From: Victivallis vadensis
GTDB taxonomy: Bacteria; Verrucomicrobiota; Lentisphaeria; Victivallales; Victivallaceae
Direction: 5' to 3'
DNA: 64,000 nucleotides
NCBI RefSeq assembly: GCF_003096415.1
Contig: NZ_QEKH01000011.1
Span: 1-64,000 of the forward strand
Under the pieces are notes generated by a model that was not told the DNA's origin, did no database searches, and saw only the letters and a list, made by a program, of their open reading frames with translations. Within the stretch, counting starts at the first letter, position 1. The number at the start of each line of letters is the position of its first letter. Both the position numbers and the translations under genes were made by a program. Below, piece by piece: positions 3,451 to 36,387 of this stretch.

Positions 3451-6400
3451 TCATTTCACCTCAAAAAGGCCGTCCGTGACGGAGACCGCCTTGAGTTCGG
3501 GGCGGTACATCGATTCGATCTGCACCGCCGGAATCGCGAAGCGGCCGCGCTGCACCGCGCGCACCCGGTAGGTGACGACGGCTTTGCCGGCATGGATGTC
3601 GCCGAACAGCAAAAAGCGGTCGTCGCGCCGTTCCAGCATCCGGGCATCCACGCCGGAGTCGACACGCTTGTCGAATACCGCATTGCGGGTCGCCAGACGC
3701 TCGTCCTCGATTTCGAGGCCGCCCGGCAGCAGGTCGCTGATCACGATGTTTTCGCATCCGGCGGCGGCGGTCACGGTGATCCGCGCCTCCAGCAAATCGC
3801 CGGAGTTGCAGCATCTGACCGGCTTGGCGTCGGCGTCGAAGTATTCGCGGCGGATCGTGAAGCCCTCGGCAACTTCCCTGCCCTCTTTCGGCAGCCCCCG
3901 GCTGCTCACGTAGACGTAAAGCGGGGCTTCGCCGCTGTTCACGACCGTGAACTTCGCCGGTACGGCGAAGTCGGCCCGGAGTGCGGAGCCGCCGTCAAGC
4001 GTCCGGTCGGGTTGGCCGGAGACCTGAAGCGTTCCCTTGCAGGCTCCCTTCGCATGGCGGGCGGCCCAGCGCGACAATCCGAGCGCGGCCCACGCGTTGT
4101 TCTGGGTGGAGCCCCATTCGCCTTCGGGACGGATCTTCTGCTGCAGCAGCGCGGCAAGCCGGGTCACGGCCGGATTCTCCGGCGCGAGATCGCCGAGAAT
4201 CCACAGCGCGAGGCCGAGGCGGCGTTCTTCGGAGTCGAGCGCCCCGCCGGAACGGCGGCTGTAAAGGTGGAAGGGATGATTCAGCAGCGGCCCGATCACC
4301 CTGGCGCCGTCCGCGGCGAAGTTGGCGCGGATCAGCGCGGCTCCGGCGAGGAAACGGCTGAACAGCTCGGGATTTTCCGAAATCACCGCGCGGGCGGGAG
4401 CCTCCGCCGAGGCCGGATCGGCCAGCGCCAGCAAATAGCAGGCGTAACCGCGCTCCTCGGCGGAGTTGCCGCGGTCGTTCACATACCGGCGCAGCTGCGT
4501 GACGATCTGCCGTTTCTCCTCCTCCGGCAGCGGATAACCGGCCAGCTCGGCTTCGAGCAGGAAATGCCACGCAAAGAAACTCCCGGCCATCCACGAGGCG
4601 CGTTCGCCGGGCCACATCGAATAGCAGCCGTCATATCTGCGCATCGCCTGAATCCGCGCCAGCGCGGAGCGGAGCTTGAGATCGGCATCCGCGCCGAAAC
4701 CGGCAGGCAGGATTCCGGCCTCCTCCAGCGGCTTCACCGCGAGGAACGGGAAAGCGCCGGCGACGGTCTGCTCCAGACAGCCGTAGGGATACTCGTTCAG
4801 CCAGCGCAGCGCACCGGCGACCGAAAGCGCCGGGGAGCCGATCTCGACCGCCGCCTTGCCGAACGTCAGGTCGAAGTCGGGGTGCGCGGTGTCGAACGTG
4901 GCGCTTCTGCCCGGTTCGACGGTGTGGATCACGGTCCGGTTTTCGGCCTGCCGGGGCGGGCGCACCGTGAAGCTCTCGCTGCCCCGGACGACCGTGCCGC
5001 CGAGTTTCAGTTCGGCCCGGACCGTCACCGCGCCGGGCAGCTTCGACGCCCGGACCGGGATGGTCACGACCCGGCGCTCCCCTTTGGCCAGCTCCAGCTT
5101 GCCGGAAGCGGCGGCGACCGGTTCGAGCGCCCCTTCGACGGTGATGCTCCAGTCGGCGGCGCTCTGTGCAAGCTCGTGGTTGAAACAGGTCAGCGCGAGT
5201 TGGAACTCATCCTGCGGCGCGACCGCGCGGGGAGCGGCGATCTGCACGGTCGCCGGTTCGCGCAACACCAGCTCGCGTTCGGCGGAACCGGTCTGCTCCT
5301 TATCCGAAGCGATCGCCATCAGCAACAGCGCCCCGGTGTGGTCTGGCAGCTGCAACTGATATTCGCCGCTGCCGGAAGCCGGCACGGAAACGGTCCGCAT
5401 CGCGACGACCGCCGGAGCCTTCAGCGCGGCGGCGAACGGCGACAGGAAACCGGCGAGCTTGTCGCCGCCGCCGATCCTGCCGTCCACCACCTGCAATGCC
5501 GGATAGAGCTGCCTGTAGGTGTCGCCGAAGCGGAACGGGCAGTTGACTTCGCCGAAGAAGAACTTCCACGGGTCGGGCGTCTTCCAGTCGGTCAGCGCCA
5601 GAATGCCCCGGTCCACCGCCCAGAGCTGCAGTTCCGCCGGAACCGGCTGCCCCGCGAAGTCGCTGACCTCCGCCCGAACCGTGACGGCCTCGCCGGGACG
5701 GCTGACGGCAGGAGCATGAAGTTTCACATCGAGCCGCCGGGAGTTCTGGTCCACCGGAATCCGCACGAGGCCAGAAAGCCGCTTCGGAATTTTCGGGTCG
5801 TCCGACGGATCGGTCACCACGGTGACTCCGGCGAAATAAGTCCCCTGCGCCAGATCCGCCGGTACCGGAATCTCGATCGCATTCCGCCCCGCCTTCACCC
5901 GGTGGGAAGTGATGGAACGGATGCGGTCGGCTCCGGCCGTGACCACCGCCTCCCCCGCCGCCGGGGCGTTGAAGGCGAACTGCACGGTTTCGCCCGGCTG
6001 GCAGGATTCGGCGTCGAGTTCAAAGGCCAGCACCGACGGATTGCGCGACCGTTCGCCGCTCTCGCCCGCATAGTGCCAGAATTCGGTTTCGGCCAGCAGG
6101 TCCCCCGCCTTGTCCGCGACGCGGAGCGTGAAGTCGCCCTCCTGCGGCATTTCGATTTCGCAGCGGTAGATGCCGCGCCCTTCGGGAACAAGCGCCAGCT
6201 TCCGCGCCGGAAACTCCTGCTGAAACTGCTGCCACTGATAGTTCCAGCGGCCGTCCTCTTCGACCAGCCGGTAGTCCCAGTCCCTGCGGATCAGGATGCC
6301 GGAGAGGGCGGGTTCCTTCAACTCATACGGCTTGCCGTCCGGCGTCACCGCCGCGATGCGGAACACGCGGCGATTCCCCTGCGCTCCGCCGTCCTGCAAA

Positions 6401-8244
6401 CCAAGATAGTGGTCGCGGTAGTGGCAGAACGCCCGGACGGTGCCGGAAACGCTCCGCCCCACCGGCGGTCTGGCGGTCGCGACCACGACGATTTCGACCG
6501 GCAGGACGGGCTTGTACGCCAGCTCCGGGATCTCGAAGCTGTCGTTGAACGCCCCGCGGCTGACCTCGCCGGAGCTGCGGAAGGTGCGCGCGGAACTGCG
6601 CTCCACCGCGGCGCGGGTGCCGAAGGTGAAGCCGCGCCAATCCTGCGGCCTGAATTCCGCGACCGCTTCGCGCACATTCAGGGTGACCGGGCCGCTCTCC
6701 AGCGGCACGCCGAAATAGTAGTCGACCCGCCCTTTCACGCGAAGCGTTTCCCCCGGCGCAAGCGTTTCCTTTTCGGCGCGGAACTCCATCTTGAGCTGAT
6801 CCGGCACATATTCGCCGACCAGAAAACGGGTGGAGCCGTAACACTGCGCCGCCGCCCGGTCCTCGCCGGGAGCGCGCAGCCGGACGGAGTAGGCACCGGT
6901 CGCCGCCCCCGCCGGAATCTCCACTCCGGTTTGATAGAAACCCGAAGCACTGCCGGTCACCGGCCGGGAACAGAAGAGCTTCCCCGACGGAGCGGTCACT
7001 TCCAGCACCAGCGGCACTCCGCCCGCCGCGTTCAGCTTCCCGGCGTCGCGCAGATAGCCGAAAACGCCGATGGTTTCACCGGGGCGGCAGATGCCGCGCT
7101 CCGGGAACAGAAACGCGCCATATCCGGCCTGCCGGGCAACCGGCAATCCCCGGTCCGCCTTGCGCAGGTCGGAGCGGTTCAGTTCGGAGAACGGCAGATA
7201 GGTCACATCCTCGCCCTGAATCGCGACCAGCAGCGCCGGCTGATCGTCGGGATCGGCCAACGGCTCAAATTCGATCTTCCCGAATCCTCCCGCATCGGTT
7301 TCGGCTTCGCCGAGCGGCTGCAGCTTGCGGCTGTAGAGCTGCACCACCGCGCCGGAGACCGGACGGTTCCCGGCCAGCGACCGCACCGCGAAACCGACCT
7401 CCCGTTCACCGGCGACCGCCTGAAGCGCCAGGTCGGTCAGCACCACCAGCCGCGAATCGCTGCGGGAGGCGTCGGGCGAGGAAATCCGCAACTGATACAC
7501 ACCGGGAACCCGCTTCAGGCCGAGCGCGTCGAAGGGCAGCGCGATACAGTTGCTCCGGTTGCGGGCGGCGGGAGCGTCCAGCGTGACGGTGCGGAGGCTC
7601 CGGGAACAGTCGCTCCACGGGGATTGCAGAAAATCCAGCAGCCGGTTCGGGTAGACCTGAGACAGCTCCACCTGGACCTTGCCGGTGTTGACCGTTTCGA
7701 CCGGCAATTCCCAGACGGAGCCGGAAACCGGGAAGAAGGAGCCGTTGCTGAGGAAATTGATCCGGGGCGGCAGTTCGGAAGCGATGAAGCCGGGGCGTTC
7801 GGTCCGTTCCAGCGGCGGAGCACCGCCGGCAGCGGGCAGGCCCTGCTTTACCGTGAACTGGTAGAATTTGCCCGGCTCGAATCCGGCGGAGATGTACCAG
7901 CGGTCGCCGCTGCTGTTCACATTCAGCGCCAGCGGCGGAGTCACGCTCAGGAACTCCGCCGCCTTCTCCGGCTGCGGCGGCGCGCTGAACCGGATTTCAA
8001 AGCGGGAATTGTCCGCGTCATACCGCGTTGAGAGAATCCGCAGCGGTTCCGGGGCGGTGGCGACCGGCGGCTTCGGCAGCGGCTGCGGAGCCGGAACCGG
8101 TTTCGGCGGTTCGGCGGCCGGGGCGGGGGTCGGCTTCTCCCTGTTCCGGGAATAGAGTTGGATGGCGAGACCCGCATTGAGGGCAAGTGAGGCGAGAATG
8201 ACCCCTCCTGCGGCGTACCGGACGACTGTTTGCTGTTTACCCAT
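3451..8244 (-). CDS. Bacterial alpha-2-macroglobulin (YfhM-like)
   Basis: A 1597-residue envelope protein with an N-terminal signal anchor (about 9-30) and no lipobox cysteine. MG/A2M domains follow, and a thioester motif GCLEQ with the cysteine at about residue 1156 sits in the alpha-helical TED domain. Bacterial alpha-2-macroglobulins trap foreign proteases in the periplasm by covalent attachment through the thioester and are paired with PBP1C. The start chosen is the ATG at 8244 preceded by AAAAAGG; a further 20 codons are open upstream. Transcription is probably from the strong boxes at 8287-8314, and pbpC follows after 7 bases. Confidence 0.93.
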   Translation of the reverse strand: MGKQQTVVRYAAGGVILASLALNAGLAIQLYSRNREKPTPAPAAEPPKPVPAPQPLPKPPVATAPEPLRILSTRYDADNSRFEIRFSAPPQPEKAAEFLSVTPPLALNVNSSGDRWYISAGFEPGKFYQFTVKQGLPAAGGAPPLERTERPGFIASELPPRINFLSNGSFFPVSGSVWELPVETVNTGKVQVELSQVYPNRLLDFLQSPWSDCSRSLRTVTLDAPAARNRSNCIALPFDALGLKRVPGVYQLRISSPDASRSDSRLVVLTDLALQAVAGEREVGFAVRSLAGNRPVSGAVVQLYSRKLQPLGEAETDAGGFGKIEFEPLADPDDQPALLVAIQGEDVTYLPFSELNRSDLRKADRGLPVARQAGYGAFLFPERGICRPGETIGVFGYLRDAGKLNAAGGVPLVLEVTAPSGKLFCSRPVTGSASGFYQTGVEIPAGAATGAYSVRLRAPGEDRAAAQCYGSTRFLVGEYVPDQLKMEFRAEKETLAPGETLRVKGRVDYYFGVPLESGPVTLNVREAVAEFRPQDWRGFTFGTRAAVERSSARTFRSSGEVSRGAFNDSFEIPELAYKPVLPVEIVVVATARPPVGRSVSGTVRAFCHYRDHYLGLQDGGAQGNRRVFRIAAVTPDGKPYELKEPALSGILIRRDWDYRLVEEDGRWNYQWQQFQQEFPARKLALVPEGRGIYRCEIEMPQEGDFTLRVADKAGDLLAETEFWHYAGESGERSRNPSVLAFELDAESCQPGETVQFAFNAPAAGEAVVTAGADRIRSITSHRVKAGRNAIEIPVPADLAQGTYFAGVTVVTDPSDDPKIPKRLSGLVRIPVDQNSRRLDVKLHAPAVSRPGEAVTVRAEVSDFAGQPVPAELQLWAVDRGILALTDWKTPDPWKFFFGEVNCPFRFGDTYRQLYPALQVVDGRIGGGDKLAGFLSPFAAALKAPAVVAMRTVSVPASGSGEYQLQLPDHTGALLLMAIASDKEQTGSAERELVLREPATVQIAAPRAVAPQDEFQLALTCFNHELAQSAADWSITVEGALEPVAAASGKLELAKGERRVVTIPVRASKLPGAVTVRAELKLGGTVVRGSESFTVRPPRQAENRTVIHTVEPGRSATFDTAHPDFDLTFGKAAVEIGSPALSVAGALRWLNEYPYGCLEQTVAGAFPFLAVKPLEEAGILPAGFGADADLKLRSALARIQAMRRYDGCYSMWPGERASWMAGSFFAWHFLLEAELAGYPLPEEEKRQIVTQLRRYVNDRGNSAEERGYACYLLALADPASAEAPARAVISENPELFSRFLAGAALIRANFAADGARVIGPLLNHPFHLYSRRSGGALDSEERRLGLALWILGDLAPENPAVTRLAALLQQKIRPEGEWGSTQNNAWAALGLSRWAARHAKGACKGTLQVSGQPDRTLDGGSALRADFAVPAKFTVVNSGEAPLYVYVSSRGLPKEGREVAEGFTIRREYFDADAKPVRCCNSGDLLEARITVTAAAGCENIVISDLLPGGLEIEDERLATRNAVFDKRVDSGVDARMLERRDDRFLLFGDIHAGKAVVTYRVRAVQRGRFAIPAVQIESMYRPELKAVSVTDGLFEVK

Positions 8245-8286
8245 GATGACCTTTTTCTTCGACGATGGAGATTGGCGTGGAGTGGT

Positions 8287-8314
8287 ATTATACAGGGTTT
8301 TCACAGGATTTCAA
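8287..8314 (-). promoter_or_regulatory. Promoter of the alpha-2-macroglobulin/pbpC operon
   Basis: On the minus strand TTGAAA and a perfect TATAAT are spaced by 16 bases, about 43 bases upstream of the chosen start codon. The neighbouring nfo gene diverges. Confidence 0.65.
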
Positions 8315-8406
8315 CTGCCGGAAACAAGTTTTTCCGAAATCATTTTTTCTCCCGGAAAAATCCGGAAAAACCGGCCCAAAGGGCGCCTCCCCGATCCTGA
8401 TGCGAT

Positions 8407-28117: not shown

Positions 28118-28209
28118 AACAAGGAACTGAATGAACAGACCGGAAGTGCGGAGGGGGAGGCAAAGGTCTGTTCACCGACAGTTTGAAAAACCCGATAGAG
28201 AGGTGTAAA

Positions 28210-31200
28210 TTGTCTTTTGCAAGGAGAATCAAATGTTGGGCCATCGGTTTGACGATGGCGGCGGGGGGCCTGATGGGGTACGGAGCGGAACAACTGAACT
28301 TTCGTTCGTCGCCGATGACGGCGGGGAAGGCTTCGCTGAGCGAAAACGGCTACATCGTGAGCCGGGAGCTGGGCGGAGCCAATTTTTCGCCCGAATTGCG
28401 GTATCCGGTGCAGCTGATCTACCGTTCGGATTCGGCGGACGCGGGGCTGTTCGGGACTTCGTGGCGCAGCCCGCAGCTGGAAAGTTCGGCGATTCCGGAA
28501 AAGGACGGCGTGCTGTGGACGACTCCGTGGGGAGAGAAAATCCGCTTCTTCGCCAAGACCAAAGACAAAGACATCCTCGACCTCTACAAAGACGCGATGA
28601 AGGGGCCGAAACCGTACTTTTCGCCGTATTCGGAGTGGGAGGCCGACGGCAAAGAAGGGAACTGGATCTTCTACGGCAAGCGCACGCTGGAGGGCTGGAA
28701 ACTGGCCTACCGCGACGCGAAGCTGATCGCAATCACGGCTCCGTCGGGGCGCAAAATCGAGTTCAGCTACTACGACGGCCGCCCGACGGCGGTGACGCAG
28801 GACGGCAAGGCGTTCCTCGAACTCTCCTACGAGGGCAATCTCGTCAAGGAGTTGAAAATCAACGGGGTAGCGCACCAACTCGCCTACGCTTCGGGCAAGC
28901 TGCTGGTGCTGCCGGAGACGGTGAACGGCAAGGCGGCGGAACTGATGCGCGCGCGGCTGACCGCGATCGCGTCGACGGGAACCGCTCCGGTGCAGTTCGG
29001 TTATGACAAGGACGGCTATCTCGCTCTCATCAAACAGGATAAGTTCGTTGATAAGCTTGCGGTGGAGCATGAAACCGAGGCGCAGCGGCTGAACTACCTG
29101 AAAGCGGTCGCCGAAAAGGAGAAGCCGCAGCGGGTCGCGGTGGCGGGCCGGATCAAGGCGGACCGCTTCTTCAATTACCGTTATCTCTCCGACAAGCCGG
29201 GGCAGCTGGTGCTGACCGACCGGGCGAAACGCGAGGCGAAATTCGACTACAACGCCGAGACCGGCATCTTCAAAACCACCGGTTTCAACGGCCTGACGCA
29301 GACGATCTATTACTTTAAGCGTTATGATGTTGCGTACAACGGCAAGGTGCGGCAGATCGTGGACGGGCGCGACCGGGTGGTGGTCAGTTACCGCTATGAC
29401 AAGCTGACCGGGCAGGTCAGCCGGATCCGCGACATCGCGGGCAACGAAATCTACTTCACCTCCAACAAGTTAGGCGAAGTGGAACTGGTGGAGCGCCGCG
29501 CGGCGAACCAGCTCAAGCGCGAACCGGTGGCGGCGTTCCGCTACGATGCGAAGCGCAACCCGATCGCCTCCATGCAGTTGGACCAGTCCGGCAAGTCGGC
29601 GGTCGAAACCCGCATCCGCTATAATGCCTACAATCAGCCGACCAACGTAAGTGACGGCCAGAGCGAGACTTCGATCGTGTACAACCGCAACGGCTATCCG
29701 AGCCGGGTCGGCAATGTGTTTGAACAATTTACCTCTTTTGAATACGACCGCTACAACCGCTTGATTTCGGCGACCGCGCCGAACGGCGTGACCACGAAAT
29801 ACGCCTACGACGAGGCCGGGCGCATCGCGAAAATGGCGCGTCTCGACGGCGAAGAGCTGTTGAGCAGCCTCGAAATCGCGTACAACGCGCAGGGGCTTCC
29901 GGCGCAGTACCGCGACCACAAAGGGCGGGTCAAGTCCGCTGAATACAACGAGTTGGGCAAGGTGGTCAAGGAGTTCCTGCCGAACGAAACCAGCGTCGAA
30001 TATCTGTACGACAGCATCGGCCAGCTCGCCAAGGTGCTGGACCAGAACCGTCACGAGATCAACTTCAACTACAACGGCTTCGGACTCGCGGGCAAGCGCA
30101 CCGCCGAAAACCAGCTGACCAGTTACCTGCATGACAAGAACGGGATGCTGAGCGCGGTGATTTCGCGTTTCGCGGATCAGAAGCAGGCGGATCGCAAGAT
30201 CGGTTACGAATACGACGACTGCGACCGGCTGGTCAAGGCGGACTACGGCAAAGGGCAGGTCGAAACCTTCCAATACGACAGTTGGGGCAAACTGATCGCG
30301 AGTTCCAAGGTTGATGCAACTGCAAAGCGCAGCGCGACTTACGCCTACGATTACTTCGGCAGGATGACTGAAAAGATCGAAACCGCCGTCGAAAACGGCA
30401 AGACGAGCAAGACGGTCAGCCGCTACGCGTACAACAACTACGGCCAGCGCATCGGCCGCGTGACCACCGCCGACGGCGTGACGTTCAGCGAAAAGCGCGA
30501 ATACGACGAGTTCGGCAGACTCGCGAAGATCGTATCCGGTTCCGATACCGTCACTTATGCGTACAACACGAAGAATCAGCTCGTGACCCGCACCACCAAC
30601 GGCATCGCCGTCCGGTACAGTTACACCAAACTCGGACAGCTCGCCGCGAAGAGCATCGCGGGCATGGAGGATGCAGCAAGTTTGAAGTATTTCTATGACA
30701 AGGATGGAACGATCAGCGGCCGCGAAGTCGGCGGCGTAAAGCAGAGCTACAAGTACGACAAGATCGGCCAGCTGCTTGCGGTCATCGATCCGGCGGGCAA
30801 GGAGGTCGAGAAATATGTGTACGATCCGGCGGGCAATATCCTGAGCAAGACTGTCGCGGGCAAAACCACGACCTACACCTACGACAAGGCGAACCAGCTG
30901 GTCAGCAGCAAAACCGCCGACGGCAAAGTCACGAAATACGAATACGACGCGGCAGGCCGCATGGTCAAAGAGGGCGAAAAGACCTTTGCCTACGGATGGC
31001 TCGACAAGGTGATGCAGGTCGCCGAAAACGGCAAGACCACGCAGACCTATACCTATGATATGCTCGGCCAGCTTGCTACGGCAGACTACGGCGACAGCAA
31101 AGAAACCTTCCTGTGGGACGGCCTCGCGCTGCTGAGCCGCAACAACCTGAAATACGTGAACGAGCCTGCCGTAACCGGAGGCAATCCGATCCTCGCCGGA

Positions 31201-31959
31201 GACAAAATGCTCTTCGACGACATGCTCGGCAACACCCTCGGAGTAAAAGACAGCGAAAAGTTCAGCGCCATCGACCGCGACGCTTTCGGCGAACTCAAGC
31301 CCGGCGAGAAGCCCAACCTCGCGGTAAACTTCTTCACCGGCAAGCCCGAAATCGACGGATTGGGGTATAGCTTCCTGTTCCGCAACTACCGCGCGGATTT
31401 GGGGAAATGGCAGACCACCGATCCGCTCGGGTATCCTGACGGCTGGAATAATCTCGCGTATGTCAATAATGGCGTGACCATGAATATCGACTGGCTGGGA
31501 GGGAAAATCAAATTTTCGAGGACTGTCTCACCAAGTGATCAAGCCAAATTTAATGCAACAATTGCAGCAATAGAAGCACGAACGGATTCCAGCGGGGCCG
31601 CCCTAGTAAAGGCAATTAAAGATAGCGATAAAGAGATTATTGTTATGCCTGACTCTTGGAATGGCGGAAAAGCAGGCTTAATGCCGATGGGGACTGCAGG
31701 AGAAAAAGCGACTTTTTATTATACTTTTGATGAAAGTCAACTTAAAGATAAGTATAGTGAAAATGACGGTTATTATCCTGATGATGAAGCGCTTATGCTA
31801 CATGAATTGACTCATGCAAAGCAGTTTATAGATGGAAGATTGGATGATATGGATGACAAGACGAGAGAATTAGAAGCCTGTAAGGAAGAAAATCAATATT
31901 GGAAAGATATTGGTTCTGATAAAAGACGAAAAACGTATGGAAAATATGTAATAGAGTAA
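28210..31959 (+). CDS. RHS/YD-repeat protein with C-terminal HELTH metallopeptidase toxin domain
   Basis: A 1249-residue secreted polymorphic toxin. A signal peptide (WAIGLTMAAGGLMGYGA) is followed by a long RHS shell with many YD repeats (from about residue 400) and the RHS core ending in DWLGG near 1100. The last 150 residues are a separate domain with HELTH at about 1198-1202, the zinc motif of a metallopeptidase. This domain is AT-rich, unlike the GC-rich shell, as expected for an exchanged toxin tip. The TTG at 28210 is chosen because GAGAGG lies upstream; the next ATG with a good site (28233) is out of frame. Confidence 0.85.
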   Translation: MSFARRIKCWAIGLTMAAGGLMGYGAEQLNFRSSPMTAGKASLSENGYIVSRELGGANFSPELRYPVQLIYRSDSADAGLFGTSWRSPQLESSAIPEKDGVLWTTPWGEKIRFFAKTKDKDILDLYKDAMKGPKPYFSPYSEWEADGKEGNWIFYGKRTLEGWKLAYRDAKLIAITAPSGRKIEFSYYDGRPTAVTQDGKAFLELSYEGNLVKELKINGVAHQLAYASGKLLVLPETVNGKAAELMRARLTAIASTGTAPVQFGYDKDGYLALIKQDKFVDKLAVEHETEAQRLNYLKAVAEKEKPQRVAVAGRIKADRFFNYRYLSDKPGQLVLTDRAKREAKFDYNAETGIFKTTGFNGLTQTIYYFKRYDVAYNGKVRQIVDGRDRVVVSYRYDKLTGQVSRIRDIAGNEIYFTSNKLGEVELVERRAANQLKREPVAAFRYDAKRNPIASMQLDQSGKSAVETRIRYNAYNQPTNVSDGQSETSIVYNRNGYPSRVGNVFEQFTSFEYDRYNRLISATAPNGVTTKYAYDEAGRIAKMARLDGEELLSSLEIAYNAQGLPAQYRDHKGRVKSAEYNELGKVVKEFLPNETSVEYLYDSIGQLAKVLDQNRHEINFNYNGFGLAGKRTAENQLTSYLHDKNGMLSAVISRFADQKQADRKIGYEYDDCDRLVKADYGKGQVETFQYDSWGKLIASSKVDATAKRSATYAYDYFGRMTEKIETAVENGKTSKTVSRYAYNNYGQRIGRVTTADGVTFSEKREYDEFGRLAKIVSGSDTVTYAYNTKNQLVTRTTNGIAVRYSYTKLGQLAAKSIAGMEDAASLKYFYDKDGTISGREVGGVKQSYKYDKIGQLLAVIDPAGKEVEKYVYDPAGNILSKTVAGKTTTYTYDKANQLVSSKTADGKVTKYEYDAAGRMVKEGEKTFAYGWLDKVMQVAENGKTTQTYTYDMLGQLATADYGDSKETFLWDGLALLSRNNLKYVNEPAVTGGNPILAGDKMLFDDMLGNTLGVKDSEKFSAIDRDAFGELKPGEKPNLAVNFFTGKPEIDGLGYSFLFRNYRADLGKWQTTDPLGYPDGWNNLAYVNNGVTMNIDWLGGKIKFSRTVSPSDQAKFNATIAAIEARTDSSGAALVKAIKDSDKEIIVMPDSWNGGKAGLMPMGTAGEKATFYYTFDESQLKDKYSENDGYYPDDEALMLHELTHAKQFIDGRLDDMDDKTRELEACKEENQYWKDIGSDKRRKTYGKYVIE

Positions 31960-32029: not shown

Positions 32030-32755
32030 ATGAATATGAGATTTTTTTTCTTTTGGGTTATCATGGGATTGTTTACTTCTACTCTTGCAATGGAAAATAT
32101 GCCTTTACCTGCTATAGAAGAGCTGCAAACTGTGCTGAACCAAAATAACAATTCTTCTTCATATTCTGATAACTCGCTGTCAAATCCCGAAAATGGACAG
32201 TTGCCGATCCGAGATAAGATTATTCATTTTTATAAAAATGAACTAAAGAATAACCATGACGGCCCGCGTGTTTTGGTTGAAGGCCTTGTAAAAAGTGGGC
32301 AAAAGCCTTCCTGGTTATCAAGTACTTTGTTGACAGAGCAGTTTTGTTATCATTTCTTTATTGATTATAACAGAAATGAAGTAGAGTTATGGCAAAGTAA
32401 GCTTGATGAAGAAAACCAAAAGAAATTAAAAATTTGCTGGCAAAATATTGCATCCATCAAAAAATCTCTCCTATCATGGGAAGATATCATCAGTGAAACC
32501 CATCCTTTCAAACCAGAATTAGAGGAATATTTAAACGGTGGTCGATTGATATTCTTTTGCACCGTATGGAATAAGACTAATGGAAGGCATAGTTTCCCCT
32601 TCGCAATTTGGGGGCCTGTTCTATTAAATGAAAAAGGAATTTCAAGCGAACAAATATTTCTATCTGAGTTTTCCGAATATCTGGAACTCATGCGTAAGCG
32701 TGATAAAAATGCCAGATTAAAATTATCGCTCTCTGAATTTCAAGAGAAATGGTAA
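32030..32755 (+). CDS. AT-rich secreted hypothetical protein, candidate immunity protein
   Basis: A 241-residue protein with a signal peptide (FFFFWVIMGLFTSTLAM). I recognise no domain. It directly follows the RHS toxin tip and shares its low GC content. Because the toxin is a predicted metallopeptidase and this protein would be exported, it may neutralise the toxin in the periplasm. The ribosome site is weak. The immunity role is inference from position and composition. Confidence 0.55.
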   Translation: MNMRFFFFWVIMGLFTSTLAMENMPLPAIEELQTVLNQNNNSSSYSDNSLSNPENGQLPIRDKIIHFYKNELKNNHDGPRVLVEGLVKSGQKPSWLSSTLLTEQFCYHFFIDYNRNEVELWQSKLDEENQKKLKICWQNIASIKKSLLSWEDIISETHPFKPELEEYLNGGRLIFFCTVWNKTNGRHSFPFAIWGPVLLNEKGISSEQIFLSEFSEYLELMRKRDKNARLKLSLSEFQEKW

Positions 32756-33087: not shown

Positions 33088-33708
33088 ATGAATAACCAAG
33101 TGAAACTGAACAGCCTTCTGCTTTTATTTGCTATATGTATGATACCTGTATGCATGGCAGAGGATTTTTTGATAGAACAATCTCTGAAAAAATCCATTGA
33201 ACATTACTGTTCAAAACCATTTTTCGATGAGAAAAGAGAAAATTTGGAACGCACTTATGAGATTTGGAACTCCATTGTCAAACCGTTTCTTCTGCGCCAT
33301 CATGTAGATAACCTTAAACTGGTTTTCATCTGGTTGGATAGTTCAACTCCGCAAACTCAATGTTGGCTTATCGCTGAGTCTATGATATATGAAATGAAGA
33401 TAGATAATAAAAATATCCATAACTTTACGATAAAGGAACGAAGAATACCCACTTCTATTTTCAGTATCATTGATCAGTTAAAGGAAGATACTGCAAATCT
33501 ATCTGATGACCACTTTCCCGTGCGAAGCAGTGGAAATGCCATTTTCCTTTATATTTTTCCAGAAAAGGAGAAGGAAGCTACTTGCCTGTATACAACTCCT
33601 CCTCATTCATACCAGAAAAACAGAATGAAATTACACATCAATTTCCTTCGTAATTTGGGAATGGAACTTCCCTTTATGAAGATATGGGAACAGGAAAATA
33701 AACAATAG
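33088..33708 (+). CDS. Second AT-rich secreted hypothetical protein near the RHS toxin
   Basis: A 206-residue protein with a signal peptide (LLLLFAICMIPVCMAE) and no recognised family. Its GC content matches the toxin tip and the first small secreted protein. Its sequence is not obviously similar to that protein, so it is probably a different immunity or accessory protein from an earlier cassette. The ATG at 33088 is chosen because it begins the signal peptide; the frame is open farther upstream without one. The ribosome site is poor. Confidence 0.5.
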   Translation: MNNQVKLNSLLLLFAICMIPVCMAEDFLIEQSLKKSIEHYCSKPFFDEKRENLERTYEIWNSIVKPFLLRHHVDNLKLVFIWLDSSTPQTQCWLIAESMIYEMKIDNKNIHNFTIKERRIPTSIFSIIDQLKEDTANLSDDHFPVRSSGNAIFLYIFPEKEKEATCLYTTPPHSYQKNRMKLHINFLRNLGMELPFMKIWEQENKQ

Positions 33709-33813
33709 GGCAAACAAGGCATTTCCCCTGCTAACAGGCACATTTGCCATTTCCAACAAGACGGGAATGCAGCTCCGGGGAGAAATCCCCGGAAGTGTTG
33801 ATTGAAACTTTTT

Positions 33814-33900
33814 GTCTGTCCGCCGGTACGCGATCCGGCATCACCTCCGCAGCACCCTGTGATCCCGACAATCGCAGGCCTCGCCGTACGGCGGACAGAC
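33814..33900 (+). repeat. Stem element copy 1
   Basis: An 87-base element closed by a perfect 12-base-pair stem, GTCTGTCCGCCG with CGGCGGACAGAC. It is preceded by TGATTGAAACTTTTT. It differs from copies 2 and 3 by paired substitutions in the stem. Confidence 0.65.
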
Positions 33901-34057
33901 TCCTTCAGAGTACGAAGTGAACTGTTTCTGGTCGACGGAGTTGTGAATGCAAGAGGCTGTCATTCACTGTTCAGGAGAAGCGGAAACCCGAAACCGTTTC
34001 GCTCCGTACTCTAAAGGAAATTCCCCGATACGGGGAGAGGCTGATTTGAAAATTTTT

Positions 34058-34182
34058 GTTTATCCGCCGATGAACGGAACGTCACCTCTGGAAGAAAGAA
34101 TTTCGATTTATTTATTCGGTCGCTCCCGGGTGGGAACGGCTATTCCGAAAGTCGTTACCGTTTCGCGAATCGGCGGGCAAAC
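34058..34182 (+). repeat. Stem element copy 2
   Basis: A 125-base element closed by GTTTATCCGCCGAT with ATCGGCGGGCAAAC (12 of 14 positions paired plus one wobble). It shares GATGAACGGAACG and AATTTCGATTTATTT with copy 3 and is preceded by TGATTTGAAAATTTTT. Confidence 0.7.
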
Positions 34183-34734
34183 AGCTTTGAAGCAGCGCAG
34201 GCTTCGACGCCCGGCTGCGCCTCCCCGATGCGAAGCATCTCTGGAGTGTGGAGATTCATCTCCGCTTTCAAGTCGCGCATCACTCTTATGCGGTCATGTG
34301 CATAAGCAGGGGAACAATGCGATTGGAAAGCGGAGCTGAAGTCGGCTTCGCCGACCCTACGGGCTCCGCACCGGGAGGTTGATCGTGCGCAATTCGGTCG
34401 CGCCTCCCCGACACGGGGAAAGGCTGATTTGAAAATTTTTCAAGGAATGAAAAAGCTTGGCGCAACTGTCGCGCGAAGCACTTCTTCTTCAAAAAATCGG
34501 CAATAACTCCGTCTCCGGGGTTGCAAAACACTCTCTGAAGCATTATGCTGATCAATAGGGAAAGGAAATTGCGTTTTTTATCTCCGTCAAATCATATTTT
34601 TATAATTATTTTATATTTTTTTGCAAATATAATCAGATTTCCGGTTGATTTCTGAAATTTTATCGTTATATTATTCAGTGTTGACTGAATAAGAAATCCA
34701 GTAACAGGTTTTCAGTCAGCGTTGATGAAAAGTT

Positions 34735-34863
34735 GTTTACCCGTCGATGAACGGAACGGTTCTTGCATTGGAATAGAATTTCGATTTATTTTTATTCAGT
34801 CTCTGGCGAGACTGAACTCCATTCCGATACATCGCCAGCCGGGCCGCGAGTCGGCGGGTAAAC
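34735..34863 (+). repeat. Stem element copy 3
   Basis: A 129-base element closed by GTTTACCCGTCGA with TCGGCGGGTAAAC (all paired, one G-U). It contains the inner hairpin TTCAGTCTC-TGGC-GAGACTGAA and lies just beyond the stop codon of the symporter gene. Confidence 0.7.
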
Positions 34864-34881
34864 TTTTTAATGCCATTTCTC

Positions 34882-36387
34882 TCATTCGGTGCGCGGCAGC
34901 GTCCAGACGGTCAGTCCGGTGAGGTCGCGGCGATTCGGAACAAGCCACGCCAGCACATACGCAACCACAAAGAGCAATGCATTCACCAGGATTGTGGTCC
35001 AGTAAGAGTGAACCGGCAATGCCAACCCCGGCGGCAGCCAGCCGAACGTGTTCAGCATCAGATAGAGATTGAAACAGAGCGCCACGGCGGTTCCGGCGAT
35101 GATCGCACGGTTTCCGACCCTCGTGGAGAAAAAGCCGAGCAGGAAAATGCTCAGGATGCCGCCGCCGAACAGCGAGCCGATGATCAGCCCGAAGTCATTC
35201 ATGCTCTCCTTGGGAATATAGCAGATCAGGATCGCCCCGCCGATCATCAGCACGCTTGCCGCTCCGGCGATCAGCTTGGCAATCACCAGATGCTCCCGGT
35301 CGGTGCGGGGACGGCCGAACCGCTTCACGAAGTCCACCGTGCAGATCGTCGAAATCGCGTTGATCGAGCTGGACTGCGACGACATCGCCGCCGCAAGGCA
35401 GGCCGCGATGATGGTTCCGCCGACAAACGGCGGGGTGCGGGTCAGGATGAAGTGCGGCAGCACCTCGTCCGCCGCCATCGCCGCGACCGCCGGTTCCGGG
35501 AACACGTGGTAAAACGCGAACATGCAGCTGCCGAGAAAGAAGAAGCTCATCCACGTCGGCACGCTCATGAACATGCAGATCAGCGTCGCCTTGCGCGCTT
35601 CGCGCAGCGACTTCGACGCGATGTAACGCTGCACCACATTCTGGTTGCTCGCATACTCGTTGGTGAAATTGACCAGCCCCAGCAGCAGCACCGCGAAGAA
35701 GGTGCGTTCGTTGAAGCCGCCCCGCATCGGGCCGAGGCTGAATTTGTTGAATTCCGTGCCGATTTCAATCACCTGCCCGAAACCGCCGGGCAGGTCCCAG
35801 ACCATCAATCCGAGGCAGAGCAGCCCGCCGCCGAGCAGGATGAAAGTCTGCACCACATCGGTCCAGACCACCGCTTCGATGCCGCCGAACACCGTGTACA
35901 AACTGACCACCACGCCGCCGACGATGATGATCCACAGGATCGGAATTCCCAGCATCCCCTCGATCGGAATCGACACCAGATAGAGGATCATCGCGAGGCG
36001 CACCACCTGCAGCACCAGAAAACTCAGCGCCGCATAGGAGCGGATCAGCACGCCGTACCGCTTTTCCAGATATTCAAACGCGCTGGTCATGTTCCCCTGC
36101 CGGAAGAGCGGGATAAAGAAGATCAGCGCGATCACCGCCACAAAAGGCAGCGCCAGATTCGTGACCGCCTGCCGGTAGTCCAGCACGTAAGCCGCCGCCG
36201 GAATCGCCAGAAACGTGACCGAACTGATCGAAGTGCCCAGCATCGAAATGCCGATCGCCCACCCCGGAAAGGAGCGGTTGCCGAGGAAGTACGCCTCCGT
36301 GCTGGTGTTTTTGCGGGCGAACCAGACGCCCATGCCCGCCATCCCGGCGAGGAACAGGACGACCGCGAGAAGATCGAGAATACGCAT
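34882..36387 (-). CDS. Sodium/solute symporter (SSS family)
   Basis: A 501-residue inner-membrane transporter with about 13 helices. The SSS/SGLT signature is seen in FFLIP-type core helices, GNRSFPGWAIGISMLGTSISSVTFLAIPAAAY and YTVFGGIEAVVWTDVVQ. SSS transporters couple uptake of sugars, sialic acid or similar solutes to Na+. It is the last gene of the AraC-side operon and most likely imports the sugar released by the operon's esterases and hydrolase. The exact substrate is unknown; a sialic-acid-type sugar is favoured by the neighbours. Confidence 0.88.
   Translation of the reverse strand: MRILDLLAVVLFLAGMAGMGVWFARKNTSTEAYFLGNRSFPGWAIGISMLGTSISSVTFLAIPAAAYVLDYRQAVTNLALPFVAVIALIFFIPLFRQGNMTSAFEYLEKRYGVLIRSYAALSFLVLQVVRLAMILYLVSIPIEGMLGIPILWIIIVGGVVVSLYTVFGGIEAVVWTDVVQTFILLGGGLLCLGLMVWDLPGGFGQVIEIGTEFNKFSLGPMRGGFNERTFFAVLLLGLVNFTNEYASNQNVVQRYIASKSLREARKATLICMFMSVPTWMSFFFLGSCMFAFYHVFPEPAVAAMAADEVLPHFILTRTPPFVGGTIIAACLAAAMSSQSSSINAISTICTVDFVKRFGRPRTDREHLVIAKLIAGAASVLMIGGAILICYIPKESMNDFGLIIGSLFGGGILSIFLLGFFSTRVGNRAIIAGTAVALCFNLYLMLNTFGWLPPGLALPVHSYWTTILVNALLFVVAYVLAWLVPNRRDLTGLTVWTLPRTE

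Follow-up and report, generated by a model that had tools for sequence, protein, structure and literature searches.

Behind a full-length Rhs gene of Victivallis vadensis lies a series of similar hairpins, and the question they raise is what these structures do and whether their pairing is kept at the level of RNA or of DNA. The first-pass annotation of the window—the whole stretch of 64,000 nucleotides analysed here, positions 1-64000 of contig C11—had described three copies of a stem and compared them with a family of small RNAs or a mobile element that depends on structure. The stems are real and structured, but they are not free-standing, and their context had been missed. The closing stem, S, belongs to a module, H0-S-T, that is repeated, covarying, present in one orientation and confined to Rhs arrays, at the ends of cassettes; its second long hairpin, T, had been overlooked.

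The Rhs array and its hairpins

The features of the array are as follows.

28183..31959, + strand: full-length Rhs/YD-repeat gene of 1258 aa, the main gene of the array, with a variable C-terminal tip following the Rhs core
32030..32755, + strand: small secreted-type ORF of 241 aa, directly downstream of the Rhs gene
33088..33708, + strand: second small secreted-type ORF, 206 aa, with its stop 106 nt before S1
33774..33793, + strand: short hairpin H0, TCCGGGGAGAAATCCCCGGA; the GTTGATT-type leader continues to 33813
33814..33900, + strand: hairpin S1, with a class a loop and arms at 33814-33825/33889-33900
33900..34019, + strand: T1, the second long hairpin, directly 3' of S1, from covariance model R1 and covariation
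34022..34057, + strand: H0 hairpin and S2 leader, GCTGATTTGAAAATTTTT; direct repeat D2, 94% identical to 34405-34440
34058..34182, + strand: hairpin S2, with a class b loop and an imperfect closing stem; no T after it
34217..34398, + strand: W, a copy of a palindromic repeat dispersed genome-wide, from BLAST
34405..34440, + strand: extra leader copy, a direct repeat in the sequence, with no S stem after it (degenerate unit)
34735..34863, + strand: hairpin S3, with a diverged class b loop and arms at 34735-34747/34851-34863; final unit of the array
34864..34868, + strand: TTTTT right after the S3 stem, an intrinsic-terminator-like array end
34882-36387, - strand: transporter gene (ORF), convergent with the array

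The units thus run S1-T1-S2-(W)-leader without stem-S3. The Rhs gene matches Pfam RHS_repeat (1.2e-56) and NCBIfam YD_repeat_2x (2.3e-43), and its match to NCBIfam Rhs_assc_core (3.8e-7) falls just under the cut-off, which the C56 and C35 copies pass. At its C-terminal end, the attached tip contains HELTHAKQ, a zinc-metallopeptidase-like motif, which suggests a protease toxin. The ORF at 32030..32755 is, from its position, a candidate immunity or partner gene, and that at 33088..33708 a candidate immunity gene; neither has a family match in Pfam or NCBIfam.

Much of the original description of the hairpins holds at the level of single bases. Copies 1 and 3 are recovered as inverted repeats at the positions first given for them, 34058-34182 aligns in register, and the quoted change from GTCTGTCC/GGACAGAC to GTTTACCC/GGGTAAAC is exact, amounting to three compensatory pairs between copies 1 and 3. 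The interior blocks said to be common to copies 2 and 3 are identical at 17/17 positions in AGAATTTCGATTTATTT. Two statements needed trimming: the stem of copy 2 (GTTTATCC/GGGCAAAC) pairs imperfectly, its outer eight positions including one A.C mismatch and one U.G, and the leader reported before every copy is strong at copies 1 and 2 but weak at copy 3, while the leader at 34405-34440 has no stem.

Genome-wide distribution of the module

Using the stems as query, by BLAST and by pattern, we searched the 5.2 Mb genome (87 contigs) and found 14 copies of S, nine of which are followed at fixed spacing by T (eight intact, one truncated or damaged). Both hairpins occur solely on contigs C11, C26, C35, C53 and C56. 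Short BLAST matches of S3 at C3, C2 and C8 were coding-sequence matches without stems, and a perfect T-motif match at C3:225029 had no partner arm. Except for the shortest and most degenerate, the copies follow a common plan, in which H0 and a GTTGATT-type leader precede S and then T; the leader is recognisable ahead of most of the S copies outside the window as well. S has arms of the type GTYTGTCCGCCG / CGGCGGACARAC, loops that fall into unrelated classes, and a total length of 33 to 129 nt, while T has arms like TCTTTGGAGTACGGAGCG / CGCTCCGTACTCCAAAGA and measures 118-125 nt.

The contigs that carry S and T also carry Rhs cores or Rhs-linked cassettes, with Rhs/YD repeats and core followed by variable tips. 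Every copy of S points the same way as the Rhs gene. Seven units have a gene immediately before them, and in these S starts 43-132 nt past the stop codon. C56 reads core plus tip, ORF, S-T, core plus tip, ORF and then S-T three times, so that two core-plus-tip pieces stand in series as further fragments downstream; C35 reads core plus tip, ORF, S-T, ORF, S-T and a 429-aa ORF ending in a Pfam Imm-NTF2-2 immunity domain (6e-11), and the arrangement in C53 and at the end of C26 is similar. The other small linked ORFs that were tested gave no Pfam match. In several units T is followed by related promoter-like stretches: TTGTAA-N17-TATGAT (C35b), TTGCAA-17-TATGAT (C56a) and TTGTAA-16-TATAAT (C53a). 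Orphan cassettes (L086:1180-1458 and L031:15791-17065, - strand) have in common a short peptide start, M(M)LQ.S.IRQ, which comes after a promoter-like stretch. The genome comes from one assembly, whose contigs are broken inside the Rhs core; C35, C38, C53 and C56 start or finish in Rhs core or cassette sequence, a pattern to be expected of repeats, which break an assembly.

The origin of such arrays is explained by what is known of Rhs loci, in which tips are displaced through recombination in the core (Jackson 2009, PMC2935791) and orphan toxins and cassettes occur (Koskiniemi 2014, PMC3967940). As in those loci, a full-length Rhs gene is followed by core fragments with variable tips and by small downstream ORFs. 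In contrast to them, the cassettes here end in a structured repeat; searching PMC2935791 and PMC3967940 by term for inverted, palindromic or terminator elements between cassettes returned none. Several cassettes here also open with their own start codon behind a promoter-like stretch, whereas the Salmonella orphan is without signals for initiating translation.

The phylogenetic reach of the module is narrow. A covariance search with T, the neighbouring hairpin, does find further copies, so that the outcome named in advance as refuting selection for structure did not come about, but across 78 genomes of the family these lie in its own genome only, with nothing convincing in the 77 others (a match in G056, E 0.003, was taken as chance). 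The T model also matched none of 41 named Lentisphaerota and related Rhs loci, hairpins of at least 12 bp in 41 other Lentisphaerota Rhs loci revealed no shared hairpin class, Rfam 15 gave nothing relevant either for the window at the gathering threshold or for the region at E<=1, and a literature search for Victivallis palindromes returned unrelated matches only. In these comparisons S-T is a lineage-specific repeat and not a known small RNA. Repeated non-coding segments also lie downstream of the core in other Rhs arrays of Lentisphaerota (70-220 bp, 70-98% identical), and since those in L144, L149 and L150, in L136, L138-L140 and L142, and in L146 fold no better than shuffles, repeated spacers may be common among Rhs arrays and hairpins special to this lineage. 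Strongly folding repeated non-coding segments (z about -7) were seen near Rhs loci of two other Victivallales/Lentisphaerota genomes, at L166:5878-6045 and 8182-8349 and at L155:692-866 and 3858-4055.

Covariation and strand asymmetry

Selection for structure, as first proposed, is supported. Against dinucleotide shuffles, copies 1, 2 and 3 fold with z-scores of -4.3, -2.6 and -6.5. When the S arms of the 14 copies are given permuted partners, permutation attains the observed score 5 times in 20,000, and 27 times in 20,000 once duplicate arm pairs are removed (11 distinct pairs). In T, 97.5% of outer-stem cells are paired, both sides have changed in 8 of the 20 outer pairs (22 cells), and the covariation score is 0.43 versus 0.24 +/- 0.03 when shuffled (0/500) and 0.06-0.14 with slid partners; the copies of S and of T are related to one another, which makes all these covariation figures indicative.

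More telling are the cells that escape Watson-Crick pairing, which bear on the level at which structure is kept. Read on the Rhs-sense strand across S, T and an inner S hairpin, they comprise 23 G-U versus 4 A-C (p = 0.0003), or 17 versus 4 when each combination of position and type is counted once (p 0.007), in a test that rests on few independent copies; an A-C on the sense strand is a G-U on the opposite one. Strand-biased mutation was rejected as an explanation of this surplus of G-U, since transitions in the inner regions show no excess of C/T (C/T 16, A/G 21). The asymmetry favours selection on the Rhs-sense RNA over cruciform DNA or template-switch repair. Covariance model R1 scores T1 at 115.6 bits sense versus 39.2 antisense.

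Possible roles of the module

We give a little better than even odds, roughly 0.55, to H0-S-T being an RNA module, specific to this lineage, at the 3' end of displaced Rhs toxin/immunity cassettes: a terminator or message-end block that insulates them. We infer that the module would be transcribed in the Rhs direction and folded as RNA, and that at the 3' end of a cassette message it would stop transcription or block message decay. Promoter-bearing cassettes would thereby be insulated from one another, and new copies would arise through cassette duplication or displacement by recombination, spreading with the cassettes, and not through transposition. Support comes from position, orientation, the RNA-type covariation and the T-runs that follow some of the S copies, with T5-T6 after the array-terminal copies S3 and C56f and after C53a. 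Like intrinsic terminators, the module offers a GC-rich hairpin soon after a stop codon, in some copies with that T5-T6; unlike them, it consists of two or three consecutive hairpins with long folded loops and mostly no U-tract. A T-rich tract follows S in C11c, C56e, C56f and C53a and is absent or mixed with other pyrimidines elsewhere, most S copies being followed by TCCTTC or CTCTTT with no real T-run, and T by AAAGGA. Judged by these flanking sequences S and T would be poor textbook terminators, and simple terminator scans neither picked them nor gave them a strong score. Also against this reading, efficient stopping at S would leave T outside RNA selection, and in the 12 kb covered the C38 Rhs tip is without a module.

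The alternative that survives best, although we consider it unlikely, is that S and T are functionless REP/MITE-like palindromes derived from the dispersed repeat W and amplified by duplication of Rhs cassettes, with paired changes left by template-switching during replication. W has 42 BLAST matches in the genome at E<=1e-3, and its motif TTTGGAGTRCGGAG occurs 30 times in this genome and in none of 8 congeners; some W copies adjoin pseudopilin-type genes. This dispersed, species-specific repeat adjoins S2 and has the arm motif in common with T (copy C56c), for which it is a plausible source, and S and T stand in tandem at 14.3-15.1 kb of C56. Template-switch repair is also a known source of compensatory change that can create and maintain hairpins (PMC8794818). 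Such repair at the DNA level would not, however, be expected to give a strand-asymmetric excess of G-U, and S and T, unlike W, are absent outside Rhs contigs and constant in position and orientation. E. coli BIMEs/REP are alternating palindromic units in intergenic or 3'-UTR positions that can stabilise messages or terminate transcription. The module resembles them in its alternating palindromic units and intergenic 3'-UTR position, and differs from them in its units of 33-129 nt, and its restriction to one locus type; no REP-associated (Y1) transposase gene was found in the genome. Nor, in the one genome of the species covered here, are there copies at unrelated sites of the kind expected of a transposable element or MITE, all of them lying in Rhs arrays.

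We think it improbable that H0-S-T is a dedicated cassette-boundary device, combining an RNA insulator that silences orphan toxins with a repeated downstream partner for whole-cassette exchange. The Rhs core would then be the upstream exchange partner and H0-S-T the downstream one. Published models rely solely on recombination in the core upstream (PMC2935791).

Improbable, too, is a separate small RNA, or a regulatory RNA derived from the 3'-UTR, spanning S-T and acting in trans or on cassette messages. The pairing is specific to the RNA strand, as such an RNA would have it, and complex loops are conserved, those of S-b being almost identical among C11, C56d and C56e although their arms differ. 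Against it, the Rfam comparison was blank, no distinct promoter was seen directly before S, and the loops belong to unrelated classes, which is unusual for a small RNA.

Integron-like sites, whose folded single-stranded hairpins would serve cassette excision and insertion, are very unlikely: like attC the module is a palindromic site after each gene, in repeating gene-plus-hairpin order and one orientation, with stems more conserved than its variable loops, but attC core sites are GTTRRRY/RYYYAAC, which the S arms GTYTGTCC, GTTTATCC and GTTTACCC do not fit, no integron integrase exceeds the family cut-off (the weak matches being ordinary tyrosine recombinases, as in 14/14 control genomes), and the cassettes hold promoter-like stretches. 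Homologous recombination within the core, moreover, already accounts for Rhs tip displacement (PMC2935791). With no enzyme found, and no copies found outside Rhs contigs or in relatives, neither the mobile element first suggested nor an integron-like reading is supported.

The 3'-end RNA module we prefer speaks to how displaced Rhs cassettes are silenced and what marks their downstream boundary, for which this structured repeat at cassette ends is a candidate both as insulator and as boundary. It also provides an example in which covariation within one genome, combined with strand asymmetry, tells RNA-level from DNA-level structure.
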